Below, one piece after another: positions 37,046 to 47,991 of a stretch of 52,078 bases of DNA (the first letter of the stretch is position 1; every line of letters starts with the position of its first letter). The translations under genes and the position numbers were made by a program. Source of the DNA: Lachnospiraceae bacterium C7 (lineage in GTDB: Bacteria > Bacillota > Clostridia > Lachnospirales > Lachnospiraceae); contig FOPE01000018.1 in the NCBI GenBank assembly GCA_900113385.1, positions 1-52,078 on the forward strand, written 5' to 3'. A model generated the notes under the pieces. It saw only the letters and a list, made by a program, of their open reading frames with translations, did not search any database and was not told the origin of the DNA.

Positions 37046-37203
37046 AAAAGCGAGTTCCGAAAGAATTTAATATACAATGACAAGAGAAAATAGTTTCCGA
37101 GTTGGGAAAAATAAGGAAAAACAAGAAATAGTCAGAAAAAAATAAAAGAAAAAAGAAGAAGTGTAAAAATAATTATATTATCCAATGGATAATTTCCCAT
37201 AGC

Positions 37204-37345
37204 AGACCAATCCCAGAAGAGCAGAGAGCACCCAGAAGAGCAGAACCAGCAGTGCATCTCAGTCGCTCCAGCCCAGACCAATCCCAGAAGAGCAGAGAGT
37301 ACCCAGAAGAGCAGAACCAGCAGCGTATCTCAGTCGCTCCAGCCC
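37204..37345 (+). repeat. 71-bp tandem duplication, GC-richer than surroundings
   Basis: Copies at 37204-37274 and 37275-37345 differ at a few bases. Each holds shorter internal repeats of CCAGAAGAGCAGA. No supported gene runs through it. Confidence 0.9.
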
Positions 37346-37422
37346 AATCTGTCATCTTTGGGTCACTTTATCAAATAACAAAAATGATATTTTATTAAAT
37401 GGTCACAAAAAAAATTAATCGT

Positions 37423-37454
37423 GTGACTAATATGTGACCGGGATTTCTTATAAT
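37423..37454 (+). promoter_or_regulatory. Island promoter 1 with GTGAC direct repeats
   Basis: GTGAC at 37423-37427 and 37434-37438, an 11-bp period, then 10 nt to TATAAT (37449-37454). There is no -35 box. The same layout occurs at 41874-41905. Confidence 0.65.
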
Positions 37455-37502
37455 GGATACATCAAAGGAGTATAACATTAGAAACATATTGGAGGAGAGT
37501 AT

Positions 37503-38177
37503 ATGAGAAAAAAATATATGGCACTGTTTGGAACAGTGGGACTAATAGCGGCAGCAGGCATAATTGCATCGCTTGCATCGGGATATAGTACAACTGATGA
37601 TGTAGGAGCTGCAGTATCAAATATATCTGAAGGAAAAGTAAAAGTAAGCCTTGGTGGGGAAGGTGTATCTAAACTTTCAGGATCAGATATGATAGTTAGT
37701 CCTGGACAATCAGAAAGCTATAAATTAAATGTAGTGAATGAAGGTACAGGAAAAAATGCTTATGGATTGTATACAAAAGTAACAATTGATTCAACATGGG
37801 ATGATGATGTCTTAGATGAAGGAGAAATTGATAAAGATTACGTAAGTTTTAAATTAGCAGGGAAAAAATTAAAAGAAGTATTATCTTATGACGAACAGTA
37901 TAAAGTTGGAGACTGGATTGTAGCACATCACGATGGAGAAGAAACAGTATTGTATTACACAAAACCAATTGAAGCTGGAGAGTCAAGCTCTAATTTTTTA
38001 GATGAAATTCATTTTGAAGATGGAATGTCAAAAGAATTCTATGGAGGAAGCTTTAAATTTGATGTAAACGTAGAAGCTGTTCAAAAGAGCAACAGCAAAG
38101 ATGCAATTGCAGCAGAATGGGGAGTTTTCCCAAAAATTGATTCAAATGGAAATATAACATCTGTTTCTGAAGAATAA
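37503..38177 (+). CDS. TasA/camelysin-like surface protein 1
   Basis: 224 aa. The N-terminus MRKKYMALFGTVGLIAAAGI followed by a small-residue stretch resembles SipW-processed TasA/CalY precursors. The mature part has the beta-rich pattern of this family, with VSPGQSESYKLNVVNEGTGK near the start. Such proteins assemble as secreted fibres in Bacillus biofilms; the role here is inferred from similarity and from a SipW gene 9 kb downstream. TTGGAGGAG precedes the ATG. It opens the first operon of the island. Confidence 0.65.
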   Translation: MRKKYMALFGTVGLIAAAGIIASLASGYSTTDDVGAAVSNISEGKVKVSLGGEGVSKLSGSDMIVSPGQSESYKLNVVNEGTGKNAYGLYTKVTIDSTWDDDVLDEGEIDKDYVSFKLAGKKLKEVLSYDEQYKVGDWIVAHHDGEETVLYYTKPIEAGESSSNFLDEIHFEDGMSKEFYGGSFKFDVNVEAVQKSNSKDAIAAEWGVFPKIDSNGNITSVSEE

Positions 38178-38191
38178 AAAGGAGTAGGGGT

Positions 38192-39034
38192 ATGAGAAAA
38201 AAACTTTTAATTTTAACAACAACATTAATGTTGTCGGTTACATGTTTAAGCCAGACAAATGTATTTGGTGCAGCAGAACCAACAGTTTTATTTACAGAGA
38301 ATAAAGAATTTAAATATAGTGGAGATGTAACAAAAAACTCAGATGGAACAACAAGCCTTGGAGATGCCTTTGAGGGAATGGCACCAGGGGATACAAAAAC
38401 ACAAACAATTAAATTAAAAAATTCAAGTAACGATACTATGGATTTTTATATTTCAGAAGAAACACTTGATGTATTAGAAGAAGCAAATAAATCATCAGGT
38501 GGAGCCTATACATATGATATTTCAGTAGGCGATACACAAGAAAGCTCAAAATCACTTATAAATGCAGTAGCAGGTGGTTATGAAGATGGTACAGGAAGCG
38601 GAAGCACAAAAGGACTTGGAGAAATTTCAGATTTAAATGATTACACATTTTTATATCAATTGGGCAAAGGACAAAGTACAAATGTATATGTAACATTAAC
38701 CCTTGAAGGTGAAGGAAATGACAGTACATCTGCAGTAGATTATTCGGATGCAACAGGAAAAATTGCTTTTAACTACAGAGCCTATGATGTAAACCACGAA
38801 GTTGAATATGGAGAAGATACAGTAAATACAAGTGTAGTTAGAAGAAATATAACAGATCCAAGTTCTACTACATCATCAGGAATTACATTATCAAATTTAA
38901 GAACACAACTAGGAAAAGTAAAAACAAGTGACGTTGGAGTTTATGGATTAGTTGCTGCGTTATTAATAGGAGCAGGCATTGTTATCGTAGCGATTACAAA
39001 AAGCAGAAAGACAGGTGATGATGATGCAGAATAA
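38192..39034 (+). CDS. Secreted surface protein with C-terminal membrane anchor
   Basis: 280 aa; no named family. Signal peptide ending around NVFGAAE, a beta-rich outside domain with GDTKTQTIKLKNSSNDTMDF typical of TasA-associated proteins, and a tail of KTSD, one membrane helix (VYGLVAALLIGAGIVIVAIT) and basic residues. The tail is arranged like a sortase signal but lacks LPxTG, so it is probably membrane-held. AAAGGAG precedes the ATG. It follows TasA-like 1 by 14 nt. Confidence 0.65.
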   Translation: MRKKLLILTTTLMLSVTCLSQTNVFGAAEPTVLFTENKEFKYSGDVTKNSDGTTSLGDAFEGMAPGDTKTQTIKLKNSSNDTMDFYISEETLDVLEEANKSSGGAYTYDISVGDTQESSKSLINAVAGGYEDGTGSGSTKGLGEISDLNDYTFLYQLGKGQSTNVYVTLTLEGEGNDSTSAVDYSDATGKIAFNYRAYDVNHEVEYGEDTVNTSVVRRNITDPSSTTSSGITLSNLRTQLGKVKTSDVGVYGLVAALLIGAGIVIVAITKSRKTGDDDAE

Positions 39035-40151
39035 AAGAATAATTAAATGCGTTGCGATGATGGTAATGGCTTTATGTTTAATATTTGCACCACAAACAAA
39101 AACAAAAGTAAATGCGGCAGGCCTAAATTATACAATTACATTTCGAGCAGGAAATGTAGGAAATTTCAATACGGCTAGTAAAAATCTTGAAGTTTCTTCA
39201 AAAGTAGGTTCAAATAGCGTATCAAAAGTAGAGGTAAAACAAAAATATGTTAGAATTACTGCAAAAAAAGGAACATCAGTTGCAACAGCAATTTATGATG
39301 GATTTGGATATGCAGTAACAGATAGTAACAGTTTGTATACATTTTTTGCAGGAGCAATGAAAGAAAACTCAGAGTATGCATTGTTAAGTGATACAACAAG
39401 ATGGGGAATTTCAGATGCCCAGTTGAAAGGTACAGACGGAGGATTAAAGAAAAATCTTAGCTTTGTATTAGATTATGGTAAACTTGTGAATCCAGTATCA
39501 TATACAATACAATATGTAGACGCACAATCAAATGCAGCAATTGCAGCACCAGTAATCGTATATGGAAGCGATGGCCAAAAAGTAACAGCAAATCCAATAG
39601 CGATTAGCCAGTATGCAACAAATAATAAAGCTGTAGATTTTACATTGAAAAAAGGTGAAAACAATACAGTTACATTTTATTATACATTTACTGGAACAGT
39701 TTTCGTCCCAGGAAATGTAACTAATAGAACAGAATATGTAGACGTTGTATTACCAACAACAGTAACAATTCCAGCTGCAACAGTAACAACTGGAACAGGA
39801 ACAACAGCAACAGGTACAACACCAGCTGCGACAGGAACAACACCAGCCGCTGCTGGGGCTGCTGGAACAGCCGGAGCCGCAGCAGGAACACCAGGAGCTG
39901 CAGCTATAGATGACCAAGCAGTTCCAAATGCTGCTAATGAAGCTGAAAATGCAAATGAAGGAAACGATGATGGTAATGAGGCAACAATTGATGATAACAA
40001 AACACCAAAATCAGATGGACAAAGTTCAGGAGAAAACAAATCTAGTAGAACTGGTTTATCAAGCACAACAGCTGTAATAATAATTGGAGCAGTTGCATTA
40101 GTAGTTGCATTTGGCGTAGGTGTTTTCACTGCAAAGAAGAGAAAACATTAA
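39024..40151 (+). CDS. MucBP-like surface protein with Ala/Thr/Pro-rich stalk
   Basis: About 375 aa. Signal peptide (cut near KVNAAGLNY), an unnamed N-terminal domain, then YTIQYVDAQSNAAIAAPVIV to VTFYYTFTG, which follows the MucBP repeat pattern seen in adhesins. A low-complexity stalk rich in Ala, Gly, Thr and Pro comes next, then SRTGLSSTTAVIIIGAVALV and basic KKRKH. No LPxTG. Several starts are possible in GTGATGATGATG (39015-39024); I choose 39024 for its spacing from ACAGG. It overlaps the preceding gene by 11 nt. Confidence 0.65.
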   Translation: MQNKRIIKCVAMMVMALCLIFAPQTKTKVNAAGLNYTITFRAGNVGNFNTASKNLEVSSKVGSNSVSKVEVKQKYVRITAKKGTSVATAIYDGFGYAVTDSNSLYTFFAGAMKENSEYALLSDTTRWGISDAQLKGTDGGLKKNLSFVLDYGKLVNPVSYTIQYVDAQSNAAIAAPVIVYGSDGQKVTANPIAISQYATNNKAVDFTLKKGENNTVTFYYTFTGTVFVPGNVTNRTEYVDVVLPTTVTIPAATVTTGTGTTATGTTPAATGTTPAAAGAAGTAGAAAGTPGAAAIDDQAVPNAANEAENANEGNDDGNEATIDDNKTPKSDGQSSGENKSSRTGLSSTTAVIIIGAVALVVAFGVGVFTAKKRKH

Positions 40152-40498
40152 AAACAATAAATAGAAAAAATAAAATTTAAAACAGAATAAAGAATTAAAC
40201 TAGGCTAAAATTGTTATAATCATCTTACATATAAGACCATGAACAAGGAAGCAGAGACTATGGATAAAATGGTCTCTGCTTCTATATATATATGGAAAAT
40301 GACGATAATTAAAGAAAAAATTTATAAAAAGTTTATGAACTAGAAAAAATACATGCAAAATCGACTAAATAAAAAGCAAAAAAATGTAAAAAATTACTAG
40401 CGTTACAAAAACAAAAGTGGTAAAATTTAAATAAAACTATAAAAAATGATAAAATAATAACAAGATTTCTAAAAATAATTATGATAAGAGGGTAAAAA
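40152..40498 (+). other. Region before the SARP-like gene with alternative hairpins
   Basis: 347 nt. TATAAT at 40215-40220 could be a -10 box. GAAGCAGAGAC (40248-40258) pairs with GTCTCTGCTTC (40272-40282), while AGACCAT (40234-40240) pairs with ATGGTCT (40269-40275). The two hairpins exclude each other. The rest is AT-rich leader. Confidence 0.5.
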
Positions 40499-41719
40499 AT
40501 GGTTAAAGTAAGAACTTTGGGGAGTTTTCAGATGTCCTACGATGGGGTAAGTGTAGAAGATTCTGATATAAGATCCACTATGATGACAAAACTTCTTATG
40601 TATATGTTGATATATAGAAAAAAAGATGTATCTAGTGCCGAAATTTGTTCAGCACTTTGGCAAGAAGATGATACAGATAATCCAACAGGGGCATTAAAAA
40701 ATTTAATGTATCGATTGAGAAATTTTTTGAAAAAACATTTTGGAATATCAGATTTTATAATTACAAAGCGTGGATCATATAGTTGGAACCCAGGATATGA
40801 AGTTGAGTTTGATGCATCAGTTTTTGAAAAAAAAATAACGAAAGCTAGTAAAGAAGAAAATATGTCAGAGGCAGTGGAATTATATAATGAAGCATTAGAT
40901 TTATATAATGGAGATTTCATGCCAAAAATAACAGATATGCATTGGATTTTGACATTAAATACATACTATCATTCTTTGTATTTGTCAGCAGTAAAGGAAT
41001 TGTCTGCATTATATAAAGAGATAGGCGCTTATGAAAAAATAGAAAAGATATGTAATAAAGCATTAAAAATTGATAGACTAGATGAGCAGATATATTGTTT
41101 TTTACTGGACTCGATGTACAATCAAGGAAAAAATGCCTTAGCAGTAGAATCTTACAATAAAGCAAAAGAGATATTAGAAAAAGAGTTAGGAGTTTTTGAA
41201 ACAGAAGATTTAGATCAGATATATGCAGATGTTTTAAATGCCACTGCAGAACATGAAATAGAAGGAATGGAAATTATCTATGACGATATGGCATTTTGCA
41301 ATGATGACATGGATGGAGCATTTGTATGTGGGTATCAGGTTTTTAAACAAATTTATCGCCTAGAAGCAAGAAAAAATGCCCGAGACAATAAAGAGGGACA
41401 GCTTCTTTTAGTTACATTAGATTGTGGCGGAAGTGGTTTACAAGATAAAGTTGCAGAATATAGATTAGGGCAGGCAATGAAAGCATTGCAGCAGATATTA
41501 ATAGAATCTCTGAGACTTGGTGATGTGACAGCAAAATATTCAAAATCGCAATTCATAGTTCTTTTACAAGATTGCAATTATAGTAATGGAGTAATGGTTT
41601 CTAATAGAATCATTTCTAATTTATTAGAAAAAAATGATAAGTACAAATCAATTTCCGTACAAATAGATATTGAGCCTATAGAATTAGCAGGTAGCGAGGA
41701 ACATTTATTTGGAAAATAA
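40499..41719 (+). CDS. SARP-like (BTAD) regulator with degenerate GGDEF domain
   Basis: 406 aa. Residues 1-95 form an OmpR-type winged helix (VRTLGSFQMSYDGVSV, TTxLLxYxLIYR pattern, ALKNLMYRLRNFLKK). Residues about 96-240 are a BTAD domain of paired helices, as in AfsR/SARP activators. Residues about 255-400 resemble a GGDEF domain, with LRLGDVTAKYSKSQFIVLLQ where LRxxDxxaRyGGDEFxvLL is expected; SKSQF at 348-352 replaces GGDEF, so it should not make cyclic di-GMP. AGAGGG precedes the ATG. It lies inside the surface island and probably activates it. Confidence 0.8.
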   Translation: MVKVRTLGSFQMSYDGVSVEDSDIRSTMMTKLLMYMLIYRKKDVSSAEICSALWQEDDTDNPTGALKNLMYRLRNFLKKHFGISDFIITKRGSYSWNPGYEVEFDASVFEKKITKASKEENMSEAVELYNEALDLYNGDFMPKITDMHWILTLNTYYHSLYLSAVKELSALYKEIGAYEKIEKICNKALKIDRLDEQIYCFLLDSMYNQGKNALAVESYNKAKEILEKELGVFETEDLDQIYADVLNATAEHEIEGMEIIYDDMAFCNDDMDGAFVCGYQVFKQIYRLEARKNARDNKEGQLLLVTLDCGGSGLQDKVAEYRLGQAMKALQQILIESLRLGDVTAKYSKSQFIVLLQDCNYSNGVMVSNRIISNLLEKNDKYKSISVQIDIEPIELAGSEEHLFGK

Positions 41720-42086
41720 AGAAAATTTATAGTCTAAAAAAGTGATTCAGAATTAATAAAAACAATTTAAAATTGAATAAACAAACATAATTACACAGCA
41801 TAAATACTCTAATCTGAAATATAATTAGAATATTTATGCAAAAGTGTAAAAAGTAACATGAAATTTTTATCGTGTGACCTATATGTGACTTAACTTTGAT
41901 ATTATATGTGTAAGTTAATTGAAGCAATTAAAACAGATTGAAAAATCTAGATAAAATTGAAAAAAGATGAAATTTAATCAAATATGTAATTGACATAAGT
42001 TAACTAGTTTTGGACTTGAGACTTATATATGAGGGTAGTAGGTTTTAAGTATTAAGCAGGAGAGTATAAGTATGAGGAGGAGTTAC
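41720..42086 (+). other. Upstream region of the large adhesin gene
   Basis: 367 nt without a gene. It includes island promoter 2 and a leader of about 170 nt with no T-rich terminator. Confidence 0.55.
41874..41905 (+). promoter_or_regulatory. Island promoter 2 with GTGAC direct repeats
   Basis: GTGAC at 41874-41878 and 41885-41889, 11-bp period, then 10 nt to TATTAT (41900-41905). TCGTGTGAC-(C/T)-(T/A)-ATATGTGAC is shared with promoter 1. There is no -35 box. Confidence 0.65.
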
Positions 42087-45000
42087 ATGAAACCAAAAAA
42101 CTTTTGGAAACAAACAATAGCTTTAGTAATGACAGGCACAATGCTTATAGGAGGCCTAGGTGGCGCGGATCAAATGAGCGTAGATGCTGCAGATACTAAA
42201 TCAGGGGTAGAAGCAAATCAAAAAGAACCAAAAAATTTCAAATTAAATTTATTTAAGTATAATACTTCAAATAATGTTGTTCTAAATAATCAAAATGTTC
42301 AAACAGAACAACCAGAAGTCAATAAAGAAAATGTAGCAAATCAGGAGACACGAAGTACAGAGACAGTTAATCCTGAAACACAGGCTCAAGAAAATGCAGA
42401 GCAAGAGGCTACAGAACAAGAAACTTTAAATCAAGAGGCTACAGAACAGGAAGTAGCAAATCAAGAAGTGCAAAATCAAGAAGTTGAAACAACAAATGCA
42501 CAAAACGCTGCAACAGATGCAGCAGTATCACAGCAAAATAGTTATTATGCTAGTAGAGGTGAATTAAAATTCACAACACCAGAAACAGCTGAAGCAGATA
42601 TTTATAATATTGAAACAGCTGGCGTTGTTCAAAACCTCGTAAGTACAACAATCGGAAATGACAATAATTTATTCTCAGCAAAAGATTGTAAATATTATGC
42701 AAATGATTTATTTACTTCAAATCCAGCTACTAATAAATCATATAAAGATGTTAGTCTTTTATTTGATGTAGATGCAGAAGGATATTATGTATTTGATAGT
42801 GACAAAACAAATGTAACATATGATGCAAAAACAAATTCTTTGCTTAGAACTGAACAAACAAAAGGACAAAATGAAGCAAAATTTATGCCATTAGGTCAGG
42901 AAGAAAGCCATTTTGGAATGAATATGGAAACACCTTTTTATCTTACATCAAATGGTAAAGTGGCAGCACCTGATGGAACAGAAACAGATGGTATTTTAGA
43001 TTTAACAAGTGATGATGATACATGGGTTTATGTAGATAACAAATTAGTACTTGATCTTGGTGGAATTCACAGCGCAGTAAATGGAAGAATTGATTTCACA
43101 ACAGGCGATGTGGAAATCACAAGTTTAACAGGTCAGAATCCAATTCAAGATGGATGCGCAGCTCCATACGTTGCAATGCAGAATGATCAAAAAGCAGTTT
43201 ACAATATTTACAATATGTATGGCGATGATTCTTTGACGAACTTAAACGATGGCAATGCACATACACTTAAAATTTACTCACTTGAGAGAAGCGTTGGAAT
43301 GAGTGATTTTAAACTTAAATTCAATATGCCTCAAGAAAAAATTAATGAAGAAGCATTAAAGAGTGAGCAAAATAAAGAAAATCTTGATAATTCTAAAATG
43401 CTTTTAAAAACAAATAATCCTGAAGCTACAGGACAAACAGATAATATAGAAACTAAAACTTATAAAACAGCAGAAATTAATGATGCTAATAACAGAGAAT
43501 ATAAAATTAATATTAGTGCTTCATCAATCGATAATGTAACAACTTCAACAGATGAAAGTACAGATATAATGCTAGTACTTGATGTATCTACTTCAATGGA
43601 AAATAAGGATGTTAATGTGGTAAGTGCAGGTAATAGTGCAGAGGCATATAACCAGTTACAAAGATTAGATACTGCGTATGAGTATGATGGCGTAAGTATG
43701 ATGGCAGATGATGAAGAAAGAACAGGCACAGTTGTGTTTGAAAATGACAAATGGGTATTTAAATATGAAAGCAGCGGACAAGAAAAATCGGTTGATATTA
43801 CCACATCAAATTGCCCAAAATCAATTAAAATTACTAGAATTGATAACCTAAGAAGAGCTGTAACCGCCTTTATAAAAACAATGCGTGAAAAGTCACCAAA
43901 TTCTAGAATAGGTATTGTTGCGATATCTGATGCAACTGGTATTTATAAGTGCGGTAGAAATATTTATACATTAACTTCATTAGATAGCGATACAAATATG
44001 ATGAATCTTATAAATGCTATTAATGGTATTACAATGCAACGCGGAAGTTGTATGACACGTACACTTGCAGATGTTTATGATTTGTTAATTACAGATAATC
44101 AAAATAGTCCTAATGAGAAAAGAGCTGTAATTTTGTTCTCTGACTGTGAGGAGTATCCAGATGATTATCAAAGCAATTGGAATTATCAAAAATATAGAAA
44201 AAAAGCTTTTAAGTTAAAAGAAGAAGCAGATGTTTACGGAATTTCCTATAATGGAATGAAAAATTCTGGTAATGAAAATAATCCTAATAGTAGGTTGACC
44301 GGTGAAACATACCTAAAAAGATATGCTGATGAAATTGAAACTGTTGGAGATGTTAGCAATCTAGCCAACGGATTTAACAATATTACTCAATATTTATCTA
44401 CAAAAACATTAAGAGGTGACGTAATTGATTATATAGATCCAAGATTTACATTAGTTAAATCTAGCTCTGATAGTAGTTACACTGCATATGAAGTAGGTAA
44501 TACTATTCCTTCACCTATTTCAGGAGAAGAAGCTGGTAAAGTATATAAAGATTCAAATGGTATATATATCAAATGGGAAAATCAACCTCTAGAGCTAGAT
44601 GAAGCTGGCAAACCTGTATGGAATGTAGAATTACTAGTAAGAGCTAATGATGACTTCCTCGGAGGCAATGTTATTCCTACAAATGGGGTAGATTCTAGGG
44701 TTGATGTTAAAGATGAAGACAATAATATTGCTGAAACACAATATTTTCCAAGGCCTGTAGTGAATGTTCAAACTAAATCGCTTAGTTTACAAGGCGAAAA
44801 TAGAACAGTCTTTTTCGGTAATTCAGTTGAACCTTGTAAGTCAATATTGGGTGAGGAGTTGTATCAAAAAATTATAAAAGACGAAAATAAGGATGAAAAT
44901 GGAAACTATGTATACACAGAACCATATTCATACAAAGATACACAAGATCATGTTGGTGATATTGTTTATACAATAAAAATTGAAAAAGGAACATTAGGAA

Positions 45001-45770
45001 ACCACATACCAACAGGAATTGGATCTGAAGTAGAAAAGTATGAAGTGTCAGCAAAAATTCAACCAATACCTTTAGACAAAAGGATTATAAAGTTTAATGA
45101 GGAAGGTTACACTTATACAGCAGATAGTGTAGCTGGTGATGTTGCTAATGATAATACTTCTGTAGTTTTTTCAAAAACTAATGTTGTTGCAGGAAAAATT
45201 GTAATTAATAAGACAATTCCTAAGAAGGATTATGAAGCTAAAAAAGGTGATCCTATTTTTACATTTAAAGTTACACGTAAGGATGGAGACGAAAAACAGA
45301 CATTCTACAAAACATTGAGATTTACAAAAAAAGTAGTAGATAATGCTGACAAAAATACAGTTACTTTATCAACTACGATAACAAATTTACCAAAAGGTAA
45401 TTATCGTGTTGAAGAACTAGATTCAATGGGATTTAAATTTGAATCTTTAGGTTACTCTACTGTACCTAATTCTGATTATTTTAATGTTGAAACAAATGGT
45501 AAAGTAGCAACTTTTAAGTTAGGCGCAAAGAAAACTGCGTATTCTTATCAAAAGAAAGATATAGTTGAAACAGTAACTACAGAGTATAAAAATACGAAGA
45601 TTGATAATAACAGACCAAGACATGATGATGTAGTTAAAAATATTTTCAACTTTGATGGAGAAAGTAAGGCAGATAGCACAAACGATGCTGATAATGGAGT
45701 AGAAAGCAATTACGAAAAGTTGTTTAGTGGAATTTTTTCAAAAAAAGATTCTACAGTAGTGCAAAAATAA
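42087..45770 (+). CDS. Giant secreted adhesin: fibro-slime, VWA and SpaA-like domains
   Basis: 1227 aa. Signal peptide (to about residue 35), a Gln/Glu/Asn-rich linker (about 60-145), a fibro-slime/PA14-like domain (about 165-430) with DDDTWVYVDNKLVLDLGGIH, a von Willebrand A domain (about 490-770) with the MIDAS motif DVSTS, and a SpaA/Cna-B-like domain near 1035-1160 (GKIVINKTIPKKD, LPKGNYRVEELD). Unlike pilus-tip adhesins, it has no C-terminal anchor; it ends in a charged tail. The start at ATG 42087 follows GAGGAGGAG. It is first in the second island operon. Attachment to TasA-like fibres is inferred. Confidence 0.8.
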   Translation: MKPKNFWKQTIALVMTGTMLIGGLGGADQMSVDAADTKSGVEANQKEPKNFKLNLFKYNTSNNVVLNNQNVQTEQPEVNKENVANQETRSTETVNPETQAQENAEQEATEQETLNQEATEQEVANQEVQNQEVETTNAQNAATDAAVSQQNSYYASRGELKFTTPETAEADIYNIETAGVVQNLVSTTIGNDNNLFSAKDCKYYANDLFTSNPATNKSYKDVSLLFDVDAEGYYVFDSDKTNVTYDAKTNSLLRTEQTKGQNEAKFMPLGQEESHFGMNMETPFYLTSNGKVAAPDGTETDGILDLTSDDDTWVYVDNKLVLDLGGIHSAVNGRIDFTTGDVEITSLTGQNPIQDGCAAPYVAMQNDQKAVYNIYNMYGDDSLTNLNDGNAHTLKIYSLERSVGMSDFKLKFNMPQEKINEEALKSEQNKENLDNSKMLLKTNNPEATGQTDNIETKTYKTAEINDANNREYKINISASSIDNVTTSTDESTDIMLVLDVSTSMENKDVNVVSAGNSAEAYNQLQRLDTAYEYDGVSMMADDEERTGTVVFENDKWVFKYESSGQEKSVDITTSNCPKSIKITRIDNLRRAVTAFIKTMREKSPNSRIGIVAISDATGIYKCGRNIYTLTSLDSDTNMMNLINAINGITMQRGSCMTRTLADVYDLLITDNQNSPNEKRAVILFSDCEEYPDDYQSNWNYQKYRKKAFKLKEEADVYGISYNGMKNSGNENNPNSRLTGETYLKRYADEIETVGDVSNLANGFNNITQYLSTKTLRGDVIDYIDPRFTLVKSSSDSSYTAYEVGNTIPSPISGEEAGKVYKDSNGIYIKWENQPLELDEAGKPVWNVELLVRANDDFLGGNVIPTNGVDSRVDVKDEDNNIAETQYFPRPVVNVQTKSLSLQGENRTVFFGNSVEPCKSILGEELYQKIIKDENKDENGNYVYTEPYSYKDTQDHVGDIVYTIKIEKGTLGNHIPTGIGSEVEKYEVSAKIQPIPLDKRIIKFNEEGYTYTADSVAGDVANDNTSVVFSKTNVVAGKIVINKTIPKKDYEAKKGDPIFTFKVTRKDGDEKQTFYKTLRFTKKVVDNADKNTVTLSTTITNLPKGNYRVEELDSMGFKFESLGYSTVPNSDYFNVETNGKVATFKLGAKKTAYSYQKKDIVETVTTEYKNTKIDNNRPRHDDVVKNIFNFDGESKADSTNDADNGVESNYEKLFSGIFSKKDSTVVQK

Positions 45771-45894: not shown

Positions 45895-46524
45895 ATGAAA
45901 AAAATTTTAAGTAACAAAAAAGCTGCAGTTACTATAACAGCTTTAGGGGTATTCTTAATAGGAGCACTTACAACATTAGGAATATTAGTGTCAACAACAA
46001 AAACGGTAGCAAATACTTTTGAAGGGGCAGAAGTAAAAACAAAGATTGAAGAAGAATTTGAAGGTACTATTAAAAAAGGTGAAACAATTAAAAAAAATCC
46101 TTCAGTAAAAAACGAAGAAAAGTCAGATGCTTTTATAAGAGTGAGAGTAACAGTAACACCTGAAGAAATATTATCAAGTAGTGAAGAAGTTGATGAAACA
46201 AAAATTTATTTGTTATGTAGTGATGGAAAACCTTTAGGAACACAGACAGGCGTTTTGTATAATAAAGAAGGAAGTATTAAAGGCGAAGACGTTGTAAATG
46301 AGCAGTATGGTTGGATATATAGTGATGGATATTATTATTACAATACACCAATAAAGAAATCTGCTAATACCAAGAGCCTATTTGAGAATGTAAAGATAGG
46401 AAGCGACATACCTTGTAATTTTGATGTTACCATTTCACAGGATGCAGTTTTTGCAGATGGATACAAAGCAGGAGATGTTGTTTCTGTAGAAAAGATTAAA
46501 GCAGAATTTGATAAAATTAAATAA
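45895..46524 (+). CDS. TasA/camelysin-like surface protein 2
   Basis: 209 aa. The N-terminus MKKILSNKKAAVTITALGVF with LIGALTTLGILVSTTKTVANTF matches the hydrophobic start and NTF motif of SipW substrates. The mature part (KTKIEEEFEGTIKKG, DAFIRVRVTVTPEEI, YGWIYSDGYYYYN) is the camelysin-like beta domain. It sits 51 nt before the signal peptidase gene that likely processes it. GGAGGGG precedes the ATG. Confidence 0.78.
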   Translation: MKKILSNKKAAVTITALGVFLIGALTTLGILVSTTKTVANTFEGAEVKTKIEEEFEGTIKKGETIKKNPSVKNEEKSDAFIRVRVTVTPEEILSSSEEVDETKIYLLCSDGKPLGTQTGVLYNKEGSIKGEDVVNEQYGWIYSDGYYYYNTPIKKSANTKSLFENVKIGSDIPCNFDVTISQDAVFADGYKAGDVVSVEKIKAEFDKIK

Positions 46525-46575: not shown

Positions 46576-47091
46576 ATGGGGAAGAAAATTTGTAGTTGCT
46601 TAGCAACAGTATTATTAGTAATTTTATTAGCAGTAGCAGTAATTTTAATTATTCCAAGATTTTTTGGAATCAAACAATTTGCAGTATTAAGTGGAAGCAT
46701 GGAACCAAACATTAAAGTGGGGTCATTAGTTTTTGACAAAGAGGTAGGAAATACAGAAATAAAAAAAGGTGACGTAATCACTTTTAAATTATCAGACAAA
46801 ACATTTGTAACTCACAGAGTAGATTCAATTAATTCTGATGGATCATATGTGACAAAAGGTGATGCAAACAAAAATGTAGATGGAAAAGTAGTTACTAAAA
46901 AAGAAGTTGTTGGCATTTACAAATTTAATATTCCATATTTGGGATATGTCACATTATATGGTCGAACACCACTTGGAGTTGCAGCAGTATGTGGAATTTT
47001 AATAGTAATAATTTTGCTTAACTTCTTGCCTGATGCATTAACAAGTGTAGAAGAAAATGAAGAAAATTTAAATACGGAAGATGATGAATAA
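46576..47091 (+). CDS. sipW: SipW-type signal peptidase I
   Basis: 171 aa. Membrane protease with N- and C-terminal helices. The catalytic Ser lies in VLSGSMEPNIKVGS. The second residue is His in FVTHRVDSI rather than Lys, which marks the ER/archaeal-like SipW class. In Bacillus SipW matures TasA and TapA. Its position between two TasA-like genes strongly suggests these are its substrates. AGGGGAA precedes the ATG. Confidence 0.92.
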   Translation: MGKKICSCLATVLLVILLAVAVILIIPRFFGIKQFAVLSGSMEPNIKVGSLVFDKEVGNTEIKKGDVITFKLSDKTFVTHRVDSINSDGSYVTKGDANKNVDGKVVTKKEVVGIYKFNIPYLGYVTLYGRTPLGVAAVCGILIVIILLNFLPDALTSVEENEENLNTEDDE

Positions 47092-47226: not shown

Positions 47227-47991
47227 ATGAACAAGAAAAAAGTCGCAACAGTTTTAGGATCAGTTGGTTTAATTGCAGCAATCGGAATTGGTGGAACATT
47301 TGCATATTTAACAGATACAACAGAGAAAGTATCAAATACATTTACTGTTGGTGATGTTGGCATCGATTTAAAGGAGTCTACAGTATCAACTAGCAGTACT
47401 AAGGAAGAAGATAAAGTTCAAGGACTTGATATCCCATTAGGAAAATATCAGTATGATACTGATGGAGATGAATGGACAGCAACAGAAAATTTATATGAAG
47501 GCTTATGCGCAAATGAGTGGGTTTACAAAGATCCTACAATTAAAATTGAGTCAGGCTCTCAACCAGCATTCCTTTATGCTAAAATTGATAACGTTAATGC
47601 TAAAATTGATAACGTTAAAGTATTCAAAAATATCAATTTTACAGATAAATGGGTGAACATTACAGATCAATACAAACAAGCAAAGGGTATCACTGATGAT
47701 ATTACTTACGAAGTTTATGCATATAGCGATGGCGCTGTATCATATGATTCAACAGAAGGTGCAACTAATGCATACACAATTTTCAATGCAGTTCAGATGG
47801 GAGAAAATTTAAGCAATCGTGCACCTGCTGGTGATACATCTGCAGTTGAAGGCAAAACAAAAATTCCAACCTTAGATATCACAGCATGTGCTGTTCAGGC
47901 AACAGGATTTAGTGGTTATAATGATGTGAATGCAATTAAAGAAATTAAATTTGATGTATCTTCAACACCTGAAGAACAACAAGTTGAGTAA
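47227..47991 (+). CDS. TasA-like surface protein 3 (SipW substrate)
   Basis: 254 aa. The precursor motif is typical: MNKKKVATVLGSVGLIAAIG, GGTFAYLTDTTEKVSNTFTVGDV, with cleavage expected near GTFAYLTD. The mature domain carries the family pattern including VKVFKNINFTDKWVNIT. An exact 7-residue repeat (AKIDNVN/AKIDNVK) comes from a 21-bp duplication. AAAGGAG precedes the ATG. It is last in the island and may be the major fibre subunit, as its well-spaced ribosome site and own leader suggest. Confidence 0.82.
   Translation: MNKKKVATVLGSVGLIAAIGIGGTFAYLTDTTEKVSNTFTVGDVGIDLKESTVSTSSTKEEDKVQGLDIPLGKYQYDTDGDEWTATENLYEGLCANEWVYKDPTIKIESGSQPAFLYAKIDNVNAKIDNVKVFKNINFTDKWVNITDQYKQAKGITDDITYEVYAYSDGAVSYDSTEGATNAYTIFNAVQMGENLSNRAPAGDTSAVEGKTKIPTLDITACAVQATGFSGYNDVNAIKEIKFDVSSTPEEQQVE
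47578..47619 (+). repeat. 21-bp in-frame tandem duplication
   Basis: Copies 47578-47598 and 47599-47619 differ only at the last base. They lie inside TasA-like gene 3. Confidence 0.85.

Follow-up and report, generated by a model that had tools for sequence, protein, structure and literature searches.

Two near-identical direct-repeat promoters lie on either side of a gene for a protein resembling the Streptomyces antibiotic regulatory proteins (SARPs) in Lachnospiraceae bacterium C7 (assembly GCA_900113385.1, contig FOPE01000018.1). The window, that is, the whole stretch of DNA analysed, covers positions 1 to 52,078 of this contig. As argued below, the protein is very likely an activator of both promoters that acts through the repeats. 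The features concerned are as follows.

37422..37438, plus strand: site 1, direct repeat TGTGAC-N5-TGTGAC with an 11-bp period (half-sites 37422-37427 and 37433-37438)
37449..37454, plus strand: −10 box of promoter 1, TATAAT, 10 nt past the repeat
40499..41719, plus strand: SARP-like regulator of 406 aa, with a winged helix (about residues 1-100), a BTAD domain (105-246) and a degenerate GGDEF domain (R339, D342, R370)
41873..41889, plus strand: site 2, direct repeat TGTGAC-N5-TGTGAC (half-sites 41873-41878 and 41884-41889)
41900..41905, plus strand: −10 box of promoter 2, TATTAT, 10 nt past the repeat

The two promoters and the protein between them

A preliminary description of this DNA had placed here two GTGAC-N6-GTGAC promoters of 11-bp period, 10 nt ahead of a −10 box and without a −35 element. 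The coordinates agree, as does a scan for sigma-70-like sites: none of the 60 displayed (63 were found, three weaker ones being undisplayed) ends at either −10 box. The near-identical flanks that it reported are also there, with 19 of 21 bases shared between 37418-37438 and 41869-41889, second repeat included. The site starts are separated by 4,451 bp, and the SARP-like gene described between them does encode a BTAD protein. No TGTGAC site was found upstream of 40499, the start of the regulator's own gene, at up to three mismatches, and an Rfam scan of the leaders at the gathering threshold gave no riboswitch match. A 71-bp tandem duplication (96% identical, 37203-37344) lies just 5' of promoter 1.

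The genome of this strain comprises 2.84 Mb in 91 contigs, and for 15 fixed bases at the base composition of the window, 0.0047 sites are expected in 2.84 Mb. The exact string GTGACN6GTGAC occurs six times, its backward control once. GTGACYNNNNTGTGACN10TANNNT matches sites 1 and 2 only; dropping the Y adds a third match, on contig 56, antisense within an open reading frame (ORF) of 551 aa. In this genome, therefore, the motif is not spread among unrelated genes; such a spread would have spoken against the earlier description. Plain chance was rejected as the origin of the sites, given the expected number per genome and the backward-pattern controls.

The regulator matches the BTAD family (PF03704) with 68.5 bits against a cut-off of 22.1. 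The Pfam winged-helix model scores 25.9 bits, just below its cut-off of 26.2, and the Pfam GGDEF match is also under its cut-off. A profile of 34 relatives matches the AfsR structure 8hvr across both winged helix and BTAD (E 4.8e-14), as well as EmbR (2fez, E 5.7e-8) and diguanylate cyclase structures; its two best rows are designed TPR proteins, which match the BTAD repeats. Profile matches to AfsR and to PhoB-type structures, with an AfsR alignment running from residue 28, identify an OmpR-type winged helix. In a single-sequence alignment, K67, N68, Y71, R72 and R74 pair with AfsR R87, T88, S91, R92 and R94 (AfsR numbering uses the 20-residue offset of chain 8k60), and the pairs N68-T88 and R72-R92 are gap-free. 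T88 and R92 make base-specific contacts in AfsR, while R87, S91 and R94 contact phosphates (PMC10936776; this and the other articles are cited from excerpts).

We call the protein SARP-like because it departs from the habit of the named SARPs, which are actinomycete regulators of antibiotic clusters; its host belongs to the Lachnospiraceae, within the Clostridia, and the genes 3' of the sites look secreted. That habit characterises the named proteins and is not a structural criterion. The AfsR equivalog model NF053617 gives 37.8 bits, where 1430 are required. The core of the earlier SARP assignment is therefore supported, by the BTAD domain and AfsR homology, the repeat geometry, the co-occurrence of site and regulator, and the covariation of residues 68 and 71 with base 4 of the half-site described below. 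A textbook actinomycete SARP it is not, given its degenerate GGDEF domain, on which the earlier description is silent, and the surface-type genes that follow the sites. The same genome holds a paralogue on contig 21 (L075:3911-5086), 31% identical, whose recognition helix is degraded. Its locus showed neither a TGTGAC nor a TGTAAC site; the contig also encodes two large secreted-looking proteins.

Distribution and covariation of site and regulator

A search for homologues of the regulator found 318, of which the best 120 were listed; among these, the named ones belong to the Lachnospiraceae. Among 397 genomes of the family, 35 encode the regulator at E≤1e-50, and the recognition helix was read in all 35: residue 68 is only asparagine (N68) in 18, only threonine (T68) in 16, and both types occur in genome G160. 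The TGTGAC pattern gave 43 sites in 22 of the 397 genomes, against one match for the backward control. It is present in 14 of 19 N68 genomes vs 8 of 378 others (p=1.5e-16), and in 13 of 18 N68 genomes when the strain's own genome is left out (p=2e-15). N68-only and T68-only genomes also differ in this respect (13/18 vs 1/16, p=1e-4). The eight carriers outside the N68 set are one T68 genome (G155) and seven without a regulator at E≤1e-50, three of which (G062, G154 and G432) have a weaker regulator on the same contig about 3 kb or less from the site. Carrier G065 has a piece of the regulator at a contig end, and in G096, G269 and G304 the protein search returned only GGDEF-type matches or none and the family search no BTAD. 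A separate set of 60 genomes, chosen by genus and order, has sites in 9 of 9 regulator genomes vs 2 of 51 others at E≤1e-40, a cut picked on viewing the list, where the genome that follows stands at 3e-18. The same architecture adjoins regulator orthologues in many genera of the family.

The TGTAAC pattern gave 38 sites in 19 of 397 genomes (control, six matches) and is present in 7 of 17 T68 genomes vs 12 of 380 others (p=2.5e-6). The 12 include two N68 genomes, one of them that of the present strain, and three genomes with weaker T68 regulators (G105, G380 and G420). Comparing T68-only with N68-only genomes (6/16 vs 2/18, p=0.08) is not significant by itself.

The 31 N68 loci hold 35 TGTGAC repeats of 11-bp period, 32 of which have TANNNT exactly at +10; the exceptions are repeats inside long ORFs in L071 and L077 and one in L104 that lacks an in-register box. 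The two long ORFs (L071:338-2668 and L077:16061-17998) look SecA-like by eye; in each of the two genomes, which share a genus, the distance to the regulator is about 7 kb. Half-site spacers of 2-4 and 6-9 gave no sites. At distances of 5-15 other than 10 from the −10 box there were 12 sites at 12, which probably repeat the boxes already counted, in a shifted register, and six elsewhere.

The two regulator types adjoin sites that differ in one letter. Out of 4096 hexamers, the top one is TGTGAC in N68 loci (32 sites, 19/30 loci) and TGTAAC in T68 loci (8 sites, 5/11 loci); the other 17 one-base variants of TGTGAC gave zero sites at this geometry, and there were no cross-matches between N68 and T68. 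All 10 TGTAAC repeats in the 18 T68 loci have a −10 box, and no TGTGAC repeat was found in these loci, nor any TGTAAC repeat in the 31 N68 loci. Counted by site-bearing locus, 19 N68 loci all have G and six T68 loci all have A, with no mixed locus (p=5.7e-6). The 19 include L186-L188, which had been fetched because they bear sites; leaving these three out gives 16 vs 6 loci and p=1.3e-5. G160 carries both regulator types, each beside its own letter.

Seven positions separate the G from the A group among the 26 site-bearing regulators, but only at 68 and 71 does the G side show a single residue. Within residues 1-250, these two alone join L186 and L187 to the main N68 clade against the A group. 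The varying letter is base 4, which in the downstream half-site stands 13 nt ahead of the −10 box; if that box starts at −12, base 4 would fall at −25, where AfsR T88 meets the downstream repeat. Regulator and signal appear to have changed together among the relatives.

The C-terminal domain and the genes behind the sites

The C-terminal domain of the regulator aligns to diguanylate cyclases. Its catalytic GG(D/E)EF motif is lost (0/121 homologue rows), with S348 in 120 rows and Q351 in 121. The I-site RxxD and the secondary arginine (R339, D342, R370) are kept in 121/121 rows and in 34/34 diverse rows, with the same spacing as R763, D766 and R794 of SgmT, a receptor of cyclic di-GMP (c-di-GMP; PMC3509222). 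A c-di-GMP input to the regulator is plausible because these three residues are conserved after loss of the catalytic motif. Their conservation is only suggestive, since they may also be retained for folding. The strain's own genome has 27 GGDEF matches; therefore, c-di-GMP is likely present. The GGDEF relative probably sets the activity of the regulator, perhaps by binding c-di-GMP, a suggestion that we hold at a little under even confidence. Elsewhere, in L165, L166 and L018, a C-terminal stretch resembling the degenerate GGDEF module (YSxSQ or YSSKQ, by eye) comes after a GGDEF domain that is intact, and in L165 and L018 a receiver-like domain precedes both.

The genes near the sites in the window, all on the plus strand, look to be of surface type.

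37503..38177: 224-aa protein with a hydrophobic N-terminus, by eye of the SipW-dependent TasA type; no Pfam or NCBIfam match
38192..39034: 280-aa protein, presumably from the same operon, that looks secreted and has a membrane segment at its C-terminus (by eye); no family match
39015..40151: 378-aa protein, presumably from the same operon, that looks secreted with a C-terminal anchor (by eye); no family match
40249..40281: hairpin with 10-bp arms, by eye a possible terminator between the first operon and the regulator gene
42072..45770: 1232-aa adhesin-like protein with a hydrophobic N-terminus, VWA and a fibro-slime match below cut-off
45895..46524: BsaA-like SipW-dependent protein (TIGR04090, 44.7 bits, below the cut-off of 60)
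46576..47091: SipW-type signal peptidase I (TIGR02228, 112.6 bits, cut-off 51.85)
47227..47991: protein with a SipW-dependent type signal peptide (TIGR04088, 34.3 bits, cut-off 19)

The hairpin is not among the terminator-like sites returned by a terminator scan. The SipW equivalog model NF046067 scores 111.4 bits on 46576..47091, below its cut-off of 190. With TIGR02228 and TIGR04088 both over cut-off in adjacent genes, we class the region as a SipW-dependent matrix locus. The window opens within the last part of a 23S rRNA gene, and a tRNA comes next (positions 1-310).

Similar genes follow the sites elsewhere. All sequence examined holds 62 distinct TGTGAC sites, 55 of which have an ORF of at least 90 aa starting within 450 nt. 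Of these 55 ORFs, 51 begin with a hydrophobic stretch, either a signal peptide or a membrane segment, vs 220 of 497 background ORFs of the same loci (p=4e-13), and many look on inspection like SipW-dependent or large surface proteins. After TGTAAC sites there are some SipW-type ORFs and several of a nameless family (like I-DSYED-IxGRIYH). This family stands right after TGTAAC in L103, L258, L259, L097 and L257; unlike these loci, L085 has it after a TGTGAC site.

Among the closest known systems is AfsR of Streptomyces coelicolor (8hvr, 8k60, 8jke), which shares the winged helix and BTAD, 11-bp repeats near a −10 box without a good −35, and the aligned helix residues. SARPs have 8 bp from the 3' repeat to the −10 box (PMC10936776), as against 10 nt after the hexamer here. 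The clostridial protein further differs from AfsR in its host, its GGDEF-like C-terminus in place of NOD/TPR, its TGTGAC half-site, the surface-type genes after the sites and the near-consensus −10 boxes. EmbR of Mycobacterium tuberculosis (2fez) likewise adds a C-terminal domain to winged helix and BTAD, but there it is FHA (PMC10936776) rather than a GGDEF relative. PimR has a SARP domain fused to a nucleotide-cyclase-like part, a guanylate-cyclase/LAL C-terminal half (PMC3367932). It differs in its antibiotic target. Its cyclase relative is also of another kind than the GGDEF relative found here. SgmT and PopA have lost the A-site and kept the I-site RxxD, as degenerate GGDEF receptors of c-di-GMP, but they are not SARP-type activators, and for SgmT the binding of c-di-GMP is demonstrated, compared with a prediction from sequence here. 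SgmT has in addition an effect on the extracellular matrix, and in the excerpted report SgmT without its GGDEF domain showed no phenotype (PMC3509222). The sipW-bsaA operon of Clostridium perfringens shares the SipW signal peptidase and BsaA-type matrix genes but is under the two-component system BsaRS, not a BTAD protein (PMC7395162). A literature search, mostly outside subscription journals, found no description of this regulator or site among the titles and abstract openings listed.

Proposed activation and its rivals

We propose that the product of 40499-41719 very probably activates both promoters through the TGTGAC repeats. By analogy with AfsR, two protomers would sit side by side, one on each half-site, substituting for a −35 element, and would recruit RNA polymerase to the good −10 box. 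The covariation suggests that helix residues 68 and 71 would read base 4, asparagine with tyrosine favouring TGTGAC and, in relatives, threonine with phenylalanine or serine favouring TGTAAC. Targets in this strain would be 37503-40151 and the VWA/fibro-slime gene at 42072-45770, and perhaps also the SipW genes that follow the latter.

The history of the regulators was examined in a tree of 54, three of which belong to neither the N68 nor the T68 group, with 200 bootstrap trees. Two changes between N68 and T68 are needed, and a single change suffices in 2% of the bootstrap trees. The second N68 pair (L186 and L187), both adjoining TGTGAC sites, is probably a second N68 lineage with TGTGAC; both loci had been retrieved on account of their sites before residue 68 was read.

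Several observations weigh against this proposal. The pair L186 and L187 lies on the T68 side of the tree, at nodes with support of 85/61 and 93/91; related sequences are not independent, and the well-supported branches alone force just one N68/T68 change. The genome pattern for TGTGAC was written after the sites in regulator loci had been viewed. In the stretches fetched, a matching site is missing from 12 of the 31 N68 loci and from 12 of the 18 T68 loci, and T68 loci with His71 have no local site (0/9), although G324, with one such locus, has four A sites elsewhere in its genome. A de novo repeat search of the T68/His71 loci and the siteless N68 loci gave no hexamer common to two among the six best per group. 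AfsR binding was not weakened when A replaced the base met by T88 (PMC10936776); hence, residue 68 alone may not discriminate. ORFs after TGTAAC sites (25 of 27 sites) have a hydrophobic N-terminus in 13 of 25 cases, not above background (p=0.29), and in G160 no obvious surface gene lies behind the sites that adjoin its regulators. G096, which is 96% complete, has five TGTGAC sites, on contigs 54, 72, 122 and 149, with no regulator or BTAD detected, and at least three of them precede surface-type proteins. G014, G304, G269 and G033 (68-86% complete) likewise have sites with neither detected; therefore, another protein may read the site in these five genomes. Finally, both the binding of the repeats by the regulator and the activation of transcription are steps that we infer from sequence.

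An alternative, which we consider unlikely, is that another winged-helix regulator, for instance of the OmpR type, reads TGTGAC and the BTAD gene is a mere neighbour. OmpR-type proteins also use 11-bp repeats, and G096, G014 and G304, which have sites without a BTAD gene, encode other winged-helix proteins. The requirement of the C. perfringens sipW-bsaA operon for the BsaRS two-component system points the same way (PMC7395162). Against this, the site letter follows BTAD helix residues 68 and 71, even for the two regulator types within G160. The winged-helix proteins read (one of two matches in G014, four of five in G096) lack the ALKNL.YR.R helix. Winged-helix proteins in L197, L204, L205, L207 and L212 (from G014, G096, G012 and G304) have by eye a short tail resembling G-E/V-Y-M/L..YSW, and four of the five a receiver-like N-terminus.

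The regulator could also bind the repeats and repress, if its bound dimer kept the −35 region inaccessible. In favour of this, the −35 position falls within the repeat, and the −10 boxes are near consensus. Since no −35 can be recognised that a dimer could block, basal promoter strength should be low, and AfsR activates at such sites (PMC10936776), so that we regard repression as very improbable. That the promoters are alike through recent duplication and have no regulatory role could account for the 19 shared bases of 21, but the similarity stops soon into the flanks, and the architecture recurs across many genera with differing spacer sequence. This conservation already contradicts duplication, which can practically be dismissed.

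If activation by the SARP-like protein holds, the analysis names a candidate regulator and binding code for surface-protein genes of the Lachnospiraceae, a large family of the gut and rumen in which the literature search turned up no comparable control. SARP-type activation, known from actinomycete antibiotic clusters, would extend to clostridial cell surfaces, and the joint shift in operator base and helix residues would serve as a naturally occurring experiment in how winged helices select their sites. Through its dead GGDEF domain, the regulator may link c-di-GMP to the production of matrix. Taken further, and this we offer as speculation that may well not hold, a clostridial family of c-di-GMP-gated SARPs would couple c-di-GMP to SipW-dependent matrix genes, with a code of N68/Y71 for TGTGAC and T68 with F or S at 71 for TGTAAC that rewires regulons by one base.

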